Of a DNA stretch of 21,118 bases, positions 4,659 through 20,649 are shown one piece after another. The stretch's first letter is position 1. Each line of letters opens with the position of its first letter. Origin of the DNA: a virus. Where the stretch lies: positions 1 to 21,118 of the IMG/VR virus record IMGVR_UViG_3300025889_001136; one strand, 5' to 3'. The position numbers were made by a program, and so were the translations under genes. The notes below the pieces were generated by a model. That model did no database searches, was not told where the DNA came from, and worked only from the letters and a program-made list of their open reading frames with translations.

Positions 4659-4666
4659 TATAAATA
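4659..4666 (+). promoter_or_regulatory. Late promoter for gp22-gp23
   Basis: An exact TATAAATA, the T4-type late promoter box read by RNA polymerase carrying the gp55 sigma factor. It begins 3 bases after the gp21 stop. The predicted start lies near 4672, leaving a leader of about 34 bases with AGGAGG at 4696-4701 before the gp22 ATG. Confidence 0.8.
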
Positions 4667-11544: not shown

Positions 11545-11583
11545 AGACTCAACATAGTCTATTATACTGATTTTTTCGATAAT

Positions 11584-11631
11584 GTCAAGTCACTTAGGGT
11601 ACTTGACAAATAATAACTCATATGTTATTGT
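11584..11631 (+). promoter_or_regulatory. Sigma70-type promoter of gp55 with two overlapping dyads
   Basis: TTGACA at 11603-11608 and TATTGT at 11626-11631 are separated by 17 bases. A perfect 7-bp inverted repeat, GTCAAGT (11584-11590) and ACTTGAC (11601-11607), covers the -35 box. A second, AATAAC (11612-11617) and GTTATT (11624-11629), covers the spacer and -10. The start would be near 11638, with AAGGAG at 11650-11655 before the gp55 ATG. Confidence 0.72.
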
Positions 11632-11658: not shown

Positions 11659-12240
11659 ATGGCTAAACGTCAAAAGGGTGAACATTATGTAGATAATAAG
11701 GTGTTTCTCCAAGCAATGGTTGAGTGGAAAGAGAAGTGTGCTCTTGCAGAAGAGGCAGGAGAAGACAGACCACCTGTTACGAATTATATCGGTGAGTGTT
11801 TTCTAAAGATTGCAACGCACCTTTCCTATCGTCCTAATTTTATTAATTATACTTACAAAGATGAGATGATTTCAGATGGCATCGAAAACTGCCTACAGTA
11901 TGCTTCAAACTTCAATCCAGAGAAGTCAAAGAATCCTTTCGCATACTTCACCCAAATTATCTACTACGCATTTTTGCGTAGAATTCAAAAAGAGAAAAAG
12001 CAAACCCATGTCAAGAACAAGATTGTTGAAGAGACAGACCATCAGTCATGGACCACAATGACCTACGATGATAGGTCTTACAGTATTCCATATTCTTTTG
12101 CGATAGAAAATCTTCCTAATGAAGATGTCTACAAACCAAAGAATAAAAAGACAGAAGAAAAGAAGAAGTCAACAACAAAGAATGGTCTAGAGCGTTTTAT
12201 GGATGAGGATGAAACAGATGCAGTTAGAGGATACGATTAA
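11659..12240 (+). CDS. 55: Late-transcription sigma factor gp55
   Basis: 193 residues (T4 gp55 is 185). It directs host RNA polymerase core to TATAAATA late promoters, acting with the sliding clamp. The segments VDNKVFLQAMVEWKEKC at the N-terminus, FLKIATHLSYRPNFINYTYKDEMISDGIENCLQYASNFNPEKSKNPFAYFTQIIYYAFLRRIQKEKKQ in the middle, with its sigma region 2-like helices, and a Lys-rich linker followed by GLERFMDEDE near the end are characteristic. It starts behind a sigma70-type promoter with a good ribosome binding site, fitting expression before late genes. Its stop abuts the TTG start of gp47. Confidence 0.95.
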   Translation: MAKRQKGEHYVDNKVFLQAMVEWKEKCALAEEAGEDRPPVTNYIGECFLKIATHLSYRPNFINYTYKDEMISDGIENCLQYASNFNPEKSKNPFAYFTQIIYYAFLRRIQKEKKQTHVKNKIVEETDHQSWTTMTYDDRSYSIPYSFAIENLPNEDVYKPKNKKTEEKKKSTTKNGLERFMDEDETDAVRGYD

Positions 12241-16580: not shown

Positions 16581-16606
16581 AAAAAACGCCTGAAAGGGCG
16601 TTTTTT
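16581..16606 (+). terminator. Rho-independent terminator after the deformylase gene
   Basis: A 10-bp perfect stem, AAAAAACGCC (16581-16590) with GGCGTTTTTT (16597-16606), and a TGAAAG loop. The A-run upstream and T-run downstream would let it work on either strand. It closes the gp55-deformylase operon and lies 4 bases before the next -35 box. Confidence 0.93.
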
Positions 16607-16609
16607 CGT

Positions 16610-16638
16610 TTGACAGATTTAGTTCTATAGTGTACTAT
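16610..16638 (+). promoter_or_regulatory. Sigma70-type promoter, first of three with ATGATG at +1
   Basis: TTGACA (16610-16615), 17-base spacer, TACTAT (16633-16638). The predicted start, seven bases after the -10 box, is A16645, the first base of ATGATG. A 29-base block covering -10 and the start (16627-16655) recurs identically at 19459-19487. Confidence 0.82.
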
Positions 16639-16668
16639 GTATATATGATGAGAAATAAGGAAAAAGAC

Positions 16669-16824
16669 ATGACCAAGAAGACACGCGGTGCTACCGTCAA
16701 ATACAAGATGTATGGCAAGATTGAATTTGAGAAAAAATTTGAGACTGCCAAGGAAGCAAAAGGTTTCTTCTGGGGTTACGTTGTGAAGACTCCGAATATC
16801 ACTGGCGAATTAATTATTCACTAA
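16669..16824 (+). CDS. Small unknown basic protein
   Basis: 51 residues from the ATG at 16669, which has AAGGAAA at 16657-16663 in front. The in-frame ATGATG at 16645 would add eight residues (MMRNKEKD) and coincides with the predicted transcription start, so a leaderless longer form is possible. The product is basic with aromatic residues (KYKMYGKIEFEKKF, then GFFWGYVVKTPNITGELIIH) and looks like a small beta-strand protein. I do not recognise it. It is the first gene behind an early-type promoter and shares the ribosome-binding stretch AAGGAAAAAGACATG with the next gene. Confidence 0.68.
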   Translation: MTKKTRGATVKYKMYGKIEFEKKFETAKEAKGFFWGYVVKTPNITGELIIH

Positions 16825-16834
16825 GGAAAAAGAC

Positions 16835-17230
16835 ATGTACACCTTTGATGACAACATCTTCTCTGATCTTCACAAGGACGCTTATGGGTTTCGTCCTCGT
16901 TCCCATGAGTATTGGGATGCAACAAATGACCGTAAGGAAGAAATCTGGAACGGTCTTCTTAAGGAACTAGACGCCGCAATCGAGCGTGAGAAGATGGCTG
17001 AACGGTGGGCAATCACCAAGTTCGAAAACGATCTGTCTGATATTGAGGTTCTTGTGGGTGACCGTGAGACTGCAATTCGGTGGTTTGTCGAGTCTCTCGA
17101 ACTTGACGAAATTGACTTGATGTATGGTGGTGAGAAGATTTGTTACGATCTAGGTCTGCCCTTCTCTATGGCAAACATTTTTGACGAGACATGCAAGAAA
17201 CTTCTTGACAATGTTGAGGGAATCGAGTAG
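16835..17230 (+). CDS. Unknown acidic, mostly helical protein
   Basis: 131 residues, ATG preceded by AAGGAAAAAGAC, identical to the site before the gene upstream. The N-terminus MYTFDDNIFSDLHKDAYGFRPRSHEYWDATNDRKEEIWN and the rest (WAITKFENDLSDIEVLVGDRETAIRWFVESLELDEIDLMYGGEKICYDLGLPF) are rich in Asp, Glu and Trp. I recognise the style from marine phages but no domain. It has no membrane segment. The promoter of the downstream large gene lies within its last 27 bases. Confidence 0.8.
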   Translation: MYTFDDNIFSDLHKDAYGFRPRSHEYWDATNDRKEEIWNGLLKELDAAIEREKMAERWAITKFENDLSDIEVLVGDRETAIRWFVESLELDEIDLMYGGEKICYDLGLPFSMANIFDETCKKLLDNVEGIE

Positions 17231-17233
17231 AAT
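17205..17233 (+). promoter_or_regulatory. Sigma70-type promoter for the VWA gene, inside the preceding gene
   Basis: TTGACA (17205-17210), 17-base spacer, TAGAAT (17228-17233). The predicted start is A17240, the first base of the ATGATG that opens the VWA gene. No Shine-Dalgarno sequence is seen before that start. The geometry is the same as at 16610 and 19442. Confidence 0.75.
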
Positions 17234-17239
17234 ATAAAC

Positions 17240-19435
17240 ATGATGAAAAAAGACACACTCGCAAAACTCCTCGCAGAAGAGGATATCTTCGTAGTTCACA
17301 AGCAGACTCCTACTGCTTACTTTGATGTGAAGCGTCGTGAACTTGGTCTTCCTATCTGGAAAGATGAGGAGATGACTAACAACATCTATGACCTGATGGT
17401 ATGTCATGAGATTGCTCACGCACTCTGGACGCCTCTGGAGATGATGGAAGAGGTCGTCACTCGCAATCTCAACAAGGGTGTTGTTAACATTCTTGAGGAT
17501 GCTCGCATTGAGAAGATGGTCCAGAAGAAGTATCCCGGCTCTGTCGGTATCTTCAATCGTGGATACGCAGAACTCGGCGAGAAGAATTTCTTCGATGTCG
17601 AGGGTGAGGACATTTCTAAACTCACTGTCATTGACCGCATCAACCTGTTCTTCAAGAAGCAGAAGGGTGTGACGTTCTCTGATGAAGAGAAGGTGTTTGT
17701 CAAGAAGACTGCCGAACTCGAAACTGTCGAGGACGTTCTGACTCTCGCAGAAGAAATCTACAAGTGGATGGAAGAGCGTTCCACTGAGGAAGAAAACTCT
17801 GATGGTGAGGATGGTTCTGTTGGTGACACTGGTGACACTGGTGAGTCCTCTGAGGGAATGTCCTCTTCTTCTGAAAAAGGTGAGGGTGAAGGTAAGTCTA
17901 AAGAATCAAAAGGTGAAGAAGATGGTGACGGTAACAACAATGCTCCTGTTGGCAACAACGGTGATGATGACTCCGAAACTGGTGATGGTGAAACTGAAGT
18001 AGGTAACACTGAGGGTGGTGTCGAGTCTGACGGTACTGGTAGTGTTCCTGTCAAGACTGACACAGACTCGAACAATGCGATTGACAAGTTGCGTGACGAG
18101 ACTGCTCAGGACCGCATGTATGGTCGTATTGCTCCTGTTCCGGCAGACACCATTGTTTCCTTCAAGACTTGCCTTGAGGAACTTGGTTCTTGGTACAATG
18201 GTTATTCTGATGAACTCTATTACCGTTCTACTCTTGAGGAAGTAACTGAACTCAAGGCTGCATCCAAGAAGACGGTTGCATACATGGTAAAAGAATTTGA
18301 GATGAAGAAGTCTGCTGACCAGTATGCTCGTGCGGCAACTGCCAAGACTGGCACTCTCGACATGGGTGCTCTTCACACCTACAAGTTCAATGATGACCTG
18401 TTCAAGAAGGTAACTACTCTGCCGGGCGCAACAAACCACGGTATGGTGATGGTTCTGGATTGGTCTGGTTCCATGTCTGACAATCTGATTGGTACTCTCT
18501 CACAGTTGTACAATCTGATTTGGTTCTGCCGTCGGACACAAATTCCTTTCAAGGTCTATGCGTTCTCTGATTGTTATGGTCGTGTAAATCGTTTTGATTC
18601 AAATGAAGATTCTGAAACAACGTTCGAGTATGGTGAGATTGAATACAACCAGTTCAAACTGTTGGAGTTCTTCTGTTCTGACATGACTGGCAATGAAGAG
18701 AACCGCATGATGCACTATCTCTGGATGGTTGCCTCTCGTTGGATTTATCGCAATTGGAATGAGAAGGGATATCCTATTGATGGTCCTTACAAGTACCAGC
18801 TTGGTGGTACTCCGCTGAACGATGCAATCATGGCAATGACTACGATTGTTCCCAAGTTTAAGAATGAAACTGGTGTCCAGAAAGTCAACACGATTTTCCT
18901 GACAGATGGTGCCTCAAGTCGCCACCACTACATTCGGGATTACAACATGGTTGATGGCAATGACGTTGAGCGCAATCTCTATGGTCGATACAAGACGATT
19001 GTTACTAATCCCAAGAACGGTAAGACCTACGAAATGACTGGTAATACCACCAATGACTTGCTTCGTATTCTCAAGGACTCTGTGGATGGTATGAACCTAG
19101 TTGGGTTCTTCATTGCGGGAACTGGTCGTTCTGGACGCATCGACAAACGGACCATTGCGTATGCCACTGGTATCAGTGTTTATGATGATAAGATGAAGTC
19201 CATGCTAAAACAAGTGAATAAGGACAAGTATCTCGCAGTCGAGGGTGATACCACTGGATATGATGAGTACTATCTGTTGCAGGGTGGTCGCAATCTGGAA
19301 GTCGAGAACGAGACTCTCGACAATGAACTGGTCGGTGCATCCAAGGCAAAACTCAAGTCTGCCTTTGGTAAGATGACTAAGGGTAAGGTTCAGTCTCGTA
19401 CCCTGTTGAATCGGTTTGTGAAATTAGTTGCATAA
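17240..19435 (+). CDS. Metalloprotease-like/VWA protein, CobT-like partner of the AAA+ ATPase
   Basis: 731 residues. Near the N-terminus HEIAHALW gives a zincin HExxH (H56, E57, H60), followed by NILEDARIE (84-92), whose acidic residues could supply a further ligand. Residues 181-275 form a low-complexity linker rich in Gly, Asp, Glu and Ser. The C-terminal half is a von Willebrand A domain with a full metal-ion-dependent adhesion site: DWSGS (D407, S409, S411), Thr524 in LGGTPLND and Asp556 in LTDGASS. The layout recalls the CobT chaperone subunit and other VWA proteins that pair with MoxR-type ATPases; the ATPase gene follows. A role in remodelling or metal insertion into a target is inferred. 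It starts with ATGATG at a predicted transcription start. Confidence 0.87.
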   Translation: MMKKDTLAKLLAEEDIFVVHKQTPTAYFDVKRRELGLPIWKDEEMTNNIYDLMVCHEIAHALWTPLEMMEEVVTRNLNKGVVNILEDARIEKMVQKKYPGSVGIFNRGYAELGEKNFFDVEGEDISKLTVIDRINLFFKKQKGVTFSDEEKVFVKKTAELETVEDVLTLAEEIYKWMEERSTEEENSDGEDGSVGDTGDTGESSEGMSSSSEKGEGEGKSKESKGEEDGDGNNNAPVGNNGDDDSETGDGETEVGNTEGGVESDGTGSVPVKTDTDSNNAIDKLRDETAQDRMYGRIAPVPADTIVSFKTCLEELGSWYNGYSDELYYRSTLEEVTELKAASKKTVAYMVKEFEMKKSADQYARAATAKTGTLDMGALHTYKFNDDLFKKVTTLPGATNHGMVMVLDWSGSMSDNLIGTLSQLYNLIWFCRRTQIPFKVYAFSDCYGRVNRFDSNEDSETTFEYGEIEYNQFKLLEFFCSDMTGNEENRMMHYLWMVASRWIYRNWNEKGYPIDGPYKYQLGGTPLNDAIMAMTTIVPKFKNETGVQKVNTIFLTDGASSRHHYIRDYNMVDGNDVERNLYGRYKTIVTNPKNGKTYEMTGNTTNDLLRILKDSVDGMNLVGFFIAGTGRSGRIDKRTIAYATGISVYDDKMKSMLKQVNKDKYLAVEGDTTGYDEYYLLQGGRNLEVENETLDNELVGASKAKLKSAFGKMTKGKVQSRTLLNRFVKLVA

Positions 19436-19441
19436 TAGGGG

Positions 19442-19470
19442 TTGACAAATGTTCCCCGATAGTGTACTAT
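19442..19470 (+). promoter_or_regulatory. Sigma70-type promoter of the AAA+ gene
   Basis: TTGACA (19442-19447), 17-base spacer, TACTAT (19465-19470). The predicted start is A19477, the first base of ATGATG in frame with the ATPase gene. The -35 box is flanked by GGGG (19438-19441) and CCCC (19454-19457). Confidence 0.82.
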
Positions 19471-19506
19471 GTATATATGATGAGAAAACAGACAGAAGGA
19501 ATGACT

Positions 19507-20649
19507 ATGTATCTCTCACCTCGTAAGAAGCTCTTTGTTGATACCGCTGCCGAAATGTTCGGTGAAGGTGCAATCATTACCAAGGCACAGAAGGCGGAGG
19601 CTGCCGAGAAGGCAGGTGTTCCGTTCCCAACGTGGTTTGGTAAGGACTACACTGTTGGTTACAATGCGTACAAGTTGCCCACTGAGGGTGGTTCCGTAGT
19701 TGCTCCTGCTGCTGTAACTGAGGATGCGTCTGCTGTGGTTAACCTTGTTGCAACAAATATGAATGACCAGAATTTGGTTCCTTCCAAGTTCGAGGGTTTT
19801 GTCTCTTGGGGTAACTTCTCTCTGATTGAGAAAGTCGTCAAGTCTGGTATGTTCTACCCCATGTTCATCACTGGTCTGTCCGGCAACGGCAAGACTCTGA
19901 TGGTCGAACAGGTTTGTGCCAAACTCAAGAAGGAACTCATTCGGGTCAACATCACCATCGAAACTGATGAGGATGATCTGCTTGGTGGTTTCCGTTTGGT
20001 GAACGGTGAAACCAAGTTCATGCCTGGTCCTGTGATCGAAGCAATGGAACGTGGTTGCACTCTTCTGCTTGATGAGTGTGATCTGGGTTCGAACAAGTTG
20101 CTCTGCCTGCAGCCGGTCCTTGAGGGTAAAGGTGTTTACCTCAAGAAGATCAACAAGTGGGTTACTCCAAAGGATGGTTTCAACGTCATTGCCACTGCCA
20201 ACACTAAGGGCAAGGGTTCTGACGATGGACGGTTCATTGGAACCAACATTCTAAACGAAGCGTTCCTTGAGCGGTTCGCAGTCACGATGGAACAGCCCTA
20301 TGCCTCTGCGGCAATCGAGAAGAAGATTGTTCTCGGTTCCATGCAGAAGTATGGTGCTGTCGATAAAGACTTTGCAGATAACCTTGTCACTTGGGCAGAG
20401 GTTATTCGTAAGACGTTCTTCGATGGTGGAGTTGATGAGGTAATCTCAACTCGCCGTCTGGATCACATTGTGAAGGCTTTTGCCATCTTTGGTGACAAGA
20501 TGCAGTCCATCGAACTGTGTGTCGCTCGTTTTGATGAAGACACTAAGGCATCATTCCTAGACCTCTACACCAAAATTGATGCTGGCGTTTTGACCAGTGA
20601 AGATAGTGTTACTGAGGATGCTGAGGAAACTGCCGAAGTTGCCTTCTAA
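19507..20649 (+). CDS. MoxR/CobS-like AAA+ ATPase
   Basis: 380 residues from ATG 19507, which lies 6 bases after AGAAGGA; ATG 19501 and the leaderless ATGATG at 19477 are in-frame alternatives. AAA+ motifs: Walker A GLSGNGKT (123-130), Walker B LLLDE (186-190), sensor 1 ATAN (229-232) and a probable arginine finger in LERF. The insert LLGGFRLVNGETKFMPGPVIEAM is the MoxR/CobS pattern. Marine phages often have this gene annotated cobS after the cobaltochelatase subunit, but nothing here proves a cobalamin role. With the upstream VWA protein it forms a MoxR-VWA pair. The C-terminus is acidic. Confidence 0.9.
   Translation: MYLSPRKKLFVDTAAEMFGEGAIITKAQKAEAAEKAGVPFPTWFGKDYTVGYNAYKLPTEGGSVVAPAAVTEDASAVVNLVATNMNDQNLVPSKFEGFVSWGNFSLIEKVVKSGMFYPMFITGLSGNGKTLMVEQVCAKLKKELIRVNITIETDEDDLLGGFRLVNGETKFMPGPVIEAMERGCTLLLDECDLGSNKLLCLQPVLEGKGVYLKKINKWVTPKDGFNVIATANTKGKGSDDGRFIGTNILNEAFLERFAVTMEQPYASAAIEKKIVLGSMQKYGAVDKDFADNLVTWAEVIRKTFFDGGVDEVISTRRLDHIVKAFAIFGDKMQSIELCVARFDEDTKASFLDLYTKIDAGVLTSEDSVTEDAEETAEVAF

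Follow-up and report, generated by a model that had tools for sequence, protein, structure and literature searches.

Three genes in a viral contig lie directly behind promoters whose predicted RNAs would begin with ATGATG, which raises the question of whether the first AUG is a start codon, a ribosome docking site or simply the beginning of the transcript. The window analyzed here is the entire 21,118-base virus record IMGVR_UViG_3300025889_001136 (positions 1 to 21,118). Judged by its sequence, this 21-kb contig belongs to a marine T4-like phage and has the T4-like gene order gp19, gp20, gp21, gp22, gp23, UvsY, UvsW, gp55, gp47, gp46, and def (genes named by order and from relatives). Among cultured marine phages, Melnitz and Mosig have major capsid proteins (gp23) 74% identical to that of the window, and the HTVC008M protein is 68% identical. 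The explanation that we hold with good confidence for the locus as a whole is that sigma70-type promoters would yield RNAs with an initial ATGATG, that the CobT-like gene would be translated leaderless, and that the genes at 16669 and 19507 would be SD-led with an accessory 5' AUG.

Geometry of the three promoters

We scanned the window for TTGACA-N17-TANNAT-N6-ATGATG and found exact matches at 16610-16650, 17205-17245, and 19442-19482, all on the plus strand. With up to three mismatches allowed, one more weak match was obtained, versus 0.56 expected. Assuming standard spacing from the -10 box, the predicted transcription starts fall at 16645, 17240, and 19477, on the first A of each ATGATG, and the sequence-only reading was correct on this geometry. 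The promoters and two neighboring elements are as follows.

16581 to 16606, bidirectional: hairpin resembling an intrinsic terminator, with a 10-pair stem and a T run, between the def gene and the first promoter
16610 to 16638, plus strand: sigma70-type promoter 1 (TTGACA, 17 nt, TACTAT), predicted +1 at 16645
17205 to 17233, plus strand: sigma70-type promoter 2 (TTGACA, 17 nt, TAGAAT), predicted +1 at 17240, conserved in relatives
19442 to 19470, plus strand: sigma70-type promoter 3 (TTGACA, 17 nt, TACTAT), a near-copy of promoter 1, predicted +1 at 19477
11603 to 11631, plus strand: comparison promoter before gp55 (TTGACA, 17 nt, TATTGT), followed by an SD-led leader without ATGATG

The hexamers agreed with the TTGACA/TATAAT-like consensus at 10 to 11 of 12 positions with a spacer of 17 at all three sites; the -10 boxes at sites 1 and 3 (TACTAT) are imperfect. 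By this measure, the three promoters are of the ordinary sigma70 type. Sites 16610 and 19442 are near-identical (34 of 41 positions, with the common block ATAGTGTACTATGTATATATGATGAGAAA), and 25 of 41 positions are identical between 16610 and 17205. The threefold repetition noted earlier is therefore exact, but it amounts to about two independent cases because two of the sites are near-copies. Promoter 1 has homologues with the same small gene in four related contigs (L162, L008, L022, and L112), and the 16835 ORF ends within promoter 2, which covers its final codons and its stop (17228-17230). An Rfam search gave no match, and the RNA structure near the 5' ends was nothing out of the ordinary (z -0.69 to 1.07).

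The gene for gp55, the late sigma factor, occupies 11659-12240, and T4-type late boxes (TATAAATA) were found in the window at 4659, 7417, and 8013. A T4-type late promoter, with TATAAATA as the -10 and no -35, is absent at all three ATGATG sites. The distribution of late boxes is consistent with early expression from host sigma70, which falls short of proof. The proposal of a dedicated early expression signal held in part: ATGATG does recur, but the promoters that carry it are ordinary sigma70-like ones, and the gp55 promoter does without it. As a start-region motif, ATGATG recurs on some sigma70-like promoters and is missing from others. We also observed a sigma70 promoter matching the consensus at 12 of 12 positions (TTGACA-N16-TATAAT) on the minus strand at 11561-11588, between the 11149 gene and gp55. 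Diverging from the gp55 promoter, it would produce RNA antisense to the 3' end of the 11149 gene.

The SD-led genes at 16669 and 19507

Promoters 1 and 3 precede the following features.

16645 to 16824, plus strand: small ORF with ATGATG at 16645 in frame, AAGGA at 16657-16661, and an SD-led ATG at 16669 (51-aa product)
19477 to 19506, plus strand: leader that opens with the predicted 5'-terminal ATGATG; SD AAGGA at 19496-19500
19507 to 20649, plus strand: CobS/MoxR-type AAA ATPase gene, SD-led, with the homologous start MYLSPRKK at 19507

The second, SD-led starts were found where they had been noted, 24 nt (16669) and 30 nt (19507) into the predicted RNAs, and both upstream ATGs (16645 and 19477) are in frame with the following gene in the window. 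AAGGA lies 6 nt before 19507, and an alternative ATG is present at 19501. Neither gene is leaderless in the sense of having a 5' AUG as its main start and no SD-led one: SD-led ATGs are present at 16669 and 19507, and CobS homology begins at 19507. For the small ORF, 16669 is likely the main start. The sequences at 16645-16671 and 19477-19509 each hold an AUG at the predicted 5' terminus and an SD-led start downstream, if +1 lies where the geometry places it. At 19477, and probably at 16645 too, the ATGATG resembles the 5'-terminal AUG of an mRNA whose gene is SD-led. The RNAs from 16610 and 19442 would carry a leader of 24 to 30 nt with an SD and give their main products from 16669 and 19507. 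The 5' AUG would be accessory, possibly docking ribosomes and sometimes yielding an N-terminally extended protein. For both sites we favor such a standby role, with lower confidence than we give to the leaderless reading of 17240. In addition, a ribosome-binding/start cassette, AAGGAAAAAGACATG, occurs at both 16657-16671 and 16823-16837, before two consecutive small genes.

The strongest competitor, which we consider somewhat less probable than its opposite, is that ATGATG at 16610 and 19442 is a mere preferred initially transcribed sequence or part of a duplicated promoter cassette, without any role in translation. The near-identity of the two sites fits this explanation, as does the frequent replacement of ATGATG by AAGATG, ATAGTG, or ATAATC in other CobS relatives, which indicates that an AUG at +1 is dispensable there. 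However, genes without an SD start (CobT, gp43, and DUF3310) have an ATG at the same place, and ATG was in excess at offset 6 behind other promoters (15 of 163 in sampled viral contigs picked by control patterns).

A further alternative, which we regard as unlikely, is that the genes at 16645 and 19477 each give two protein forms, initiated at the 5'-terminal ATG and at the SD-led ATG, respectively. Both ATG pairs are in frame in the window, the 14 leadered CobT loci with both starts keep the frame, the leaders of Mosig and HTVC008M are in frame at CobT and CobS, and many E. coli 5'-uAUGs are translated (PMC4965119). For the small gene, the frame of the 16645 ATG is kept in all five loci (the window and four relatives), which comprise few distinct leader lengths. 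The CobS loci argue against this alternative. The later start is present in 56 of 58 distinct loci, opposite to the adjacent CobT: a start near the promoter is the sole one in 2, a 5' ATG in frame is combined with a later start in 26, and 30 have the later start only. Many relatives, the close L090/L161, L091, and L107 among them, have the upstream ATG out of frame. L090/L161 and L091 have CobS proteins of 91-94% identity and the same leader except for one additional A, which shifts the ATGATG out of frame.

Across leaders in general, 31 of 65 upstream ATGs at promoter ends were in frame, compared to 548 of 1,539 control upstream ATGs (p = 0.064). Given this weak excess, we do not take frame bias to prove that the 5' ATG is translated. 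A sample of 81 leaders showed an in-frame excess (42/81, p = 0.0004), but it came from pattern-selected contigs, the selected hits are among its members, and some of its pairs are not genuine leaders. Loss of the CobS frame in 91-94% identical relatives that retain ATGATG leaves two conserved protein forms at 19477 unsupported; in this window two forms are possible, as the sequence-only reading proposed. A gene for ribosomal protein S21 lies beside CobS in the Pelagibacter phages HTVC008M (L179 16229-16432) and Mosig (L180 9932-10141), a possible link to altered translation initiation.

The CobT/peptidase-like gene at 17240

Promoter 2 precedes a single long gene.

17240 to 19435, plus strand: CobT/peptidase-like gene (PHROG 459, E 8e-199; 731 aa), whose only usable start is the ATGATG at the predicted +1

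The sequence 5' of 17240 reads TAGAATATAAAC. No SD is present 4 to 12 nt ahead of the start. The in-frame stop, a TAG 12 nt upstream, falls inside the promoter, and the gene has no alternative upstream start. The same holds in relatives, in which promoter geometry likewise places the start at or a few nucleotides from the predicted 5' end. Among related contigs, TTGACA-N17-TANNNT-(5 or 6 nt)-ATGATGAAA recurs before the CobT start down to ~47% protein identity. We counted 66 distinct related CobT loci with a recognized promoter; these loci are not phylogenetically independent, and promoter and SD classes were assigned partly by regular expressions. A start no more than 14 nt from the -10 box was the sole one in 40 of them, 14 combined it with a later in-frame start, and 12 had the later start only. 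The figure of 40 is conservative, since L039, L110, and L055 were counted as leadered yet have a second promoter of the leaderless type nearer the gene. On the CobT tree, the leaderless label required 10 changes versus 20.3 when shuffled, and leaderless loci lay on both sides of the midpoint root. Tandem promoters, one leadered and one of the leaderless type, were seen in some CobT relatives (L039 at 3888 and 3965; L110 at 1520 and 1597).

The best reading is that the 17240 gene is probably read from a leaderless mRNA, as had been suspected from its missing ribosome-binding site, because it has no SD, a stop inside the promoter, an ATG that is the sole usable start, and the same geometry across the family. 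The 14 loci with both starts and the 12 with only the later one indicate that leaderless expression is not obligatory. We envisage that a host sigma70-type promoter at 17205 would produce RNA whose 5' end lies on the AUG or ~1-3 nt off, with the first ATG as start codon. The CobT/peptidase-like protein would then be made by SD-independent leaderless initiation, in which a 5'-terminal AUG is recognized, classically by 70S ribosomes. With two AUGs in tandem, a slight displacement of the transcription start may be tolerated.

Transcripts that begin at the 16610 promoter and read through could also include the 17240 gene. An explanation built on this, in which the gene is expressed mainly by termination-reinitiation on the longer RNA and the promoter match and ATG spacing are incidental, appears improbable. 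In its favor, the stop of the 16835 ORF lies 9 nt before the ATG, with no terminator in between. However, the gap from the upstream ORF to the CobT start ranges from 2 to 147 nt across relatives and the upstream ORFs differ, while the promoter and the ATG spacing are kept; translational coupling is thus not the conserved feature. Three near relatives (L006, L007, and L080) also have other upstream sequence on the same promoter. At this junction, the CobT promoter and the final codons of the gene before it (KKLLDN...) are joined to sequence different from that of the window, as if by recombination at the promoter edge. An accident in AT-rich phage DNA can practically be dismissed, even with two of the three sites being copies of one sequence, since none of 2,000 simulated first-order Markov windows held an exact match and the pattern is conserved in dozens of relatives.

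The same layout at other genes and in known systems

The geometry also recurs elsewhere, both in related contigs and at further genes, a point that the sequence-only reading had put forward for checking. In 223 non-redundant TTGAC[A/T]-N17-TANNNT sites of related contigs, ATG peaked 6 nt (62 sites) and 9 nt (63 sites) after the -10 box, compared to 0 to 2 at offsets 0-4 and 1 to 7 at offsets 13-19; homologous loci among these sites are not independent, and many are CobT and CobS. The gp43 DNA polymerase has the same layout in long related contigs (L551, L557, L556, and L563, with a broken copy in L562), as do DUF3310 (L547 and L563), primase (L548), MazG-like (L555), 2OG-oxygenase (L059), and other genes. 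The sites at gp43, DUF3310, primase, and others have no SD and usually have an in-frame stop inside the promoter. Among the IMG/VR matches listed, the N6 spacing opened an ORF of at least 60 aa preceded by a stop in 58 of 128, compared to 24 of 119 for N12 and 13 of 120 for N1; these sets are samples, and the controls contain repeats. Five viral contigs found by the pattern alone (L190, L265, L266, L289, and L295) contain at least one promoter with a ATGATGAATAAGGA or ATGATGAAAGGAAATG leader behind it; most of these leaders are in frame with the SD-led start.

A broader generalization is possible, though we hold it tentatively and think it more doubtful than not. A whole class of phage early genes, including DNA polymerase, may have start regions that encode AUG(AUG) and may be translated without an SD as the RNA emerges, bypassing 30S/SD selection and repressors of the SD region. 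Genes that also have an SD start would gain additional ribosomes through the 5' AUG, and the arrangement would be common in unrelated phages too. If so, marine T4-like phages would use leaderless mRNAs for key replication genes and AAA/VWA-type genes, with consequences for start-site annotation, DNA polymerase autoregulation, and phage competition for ribosomes. In T4, this autoregulation represses gp43 at the ribosome-binding region. HTVC008M is one of the cultured relatives suited to a direct test. Its depositor-annotated start at 18049 of L179, in a DUF3310-like position, lies 7 nt after the -10 box, and its annotated gp43 start at 22062 of L179 lies 12 nt after.

Leaderless mRNAs as such are well known. 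The 17240 gene resembles those of lambda cI and of many actinobacterial and haloarchaeal genes in having a start codon on the predicted +1 or beside it, no SD, and A-rich first codons. Unlike them, the layout here, with predicted 5' ends, is conserved across a phage family at CobT-like, gp43, DUF3310, and primase genes, often with a tandem ATGATG. A literature search that covered few subscription journals returned no paper on leaderless transcripts in T4-like marine phages, which does not show that they are undescribed.

Among phage isolates, T4-like cyanophages (P-SSM2, S-SM1, P-RSM1, S-RIM44, and others) have orthologous CobT and CobS in the same order after gp46. However, their CobT and CobS have a TATAAT-like -10 without TTGACA-N17 and short leaders without ATGATG, and we rejected these isolates as support because the arrangement is absent at both genes. 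Melnitz, Mosig, and HTVC008M share with the window TTGAC[A/T]-N17 promoters, some starts 7 to 12 nt after the -10 box, and ATGAGAAA-type leaders. The exact N6-ATGATG form without mismatch was not found in these three phages, and Melnitz, unlike the window, has no annotated CobT or CobS in this region.

The closest parallel to the two SD-led genes comes from E. coli, in which mRNAs with a 5'-terminal AUG ahead of an SD-led gene have been described and several such AUGs are translated (Beck, Fleming and Janssen 2016, PMC4965119). Mutation of some of these AUGs lowered expression of the downstream gene, to below 8% for ptrB, and a standby-site role was proposed (PMC4965119). Like these mRNAs, those predicted from 16645 and 19477 have an AUG at the 5' end and an SD-led gene 24 to 30 nt downstream. 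In contrast to the E. coli cases tested, which were chosen out of frame, the pair in the window is in frame and the AUG is doubled.
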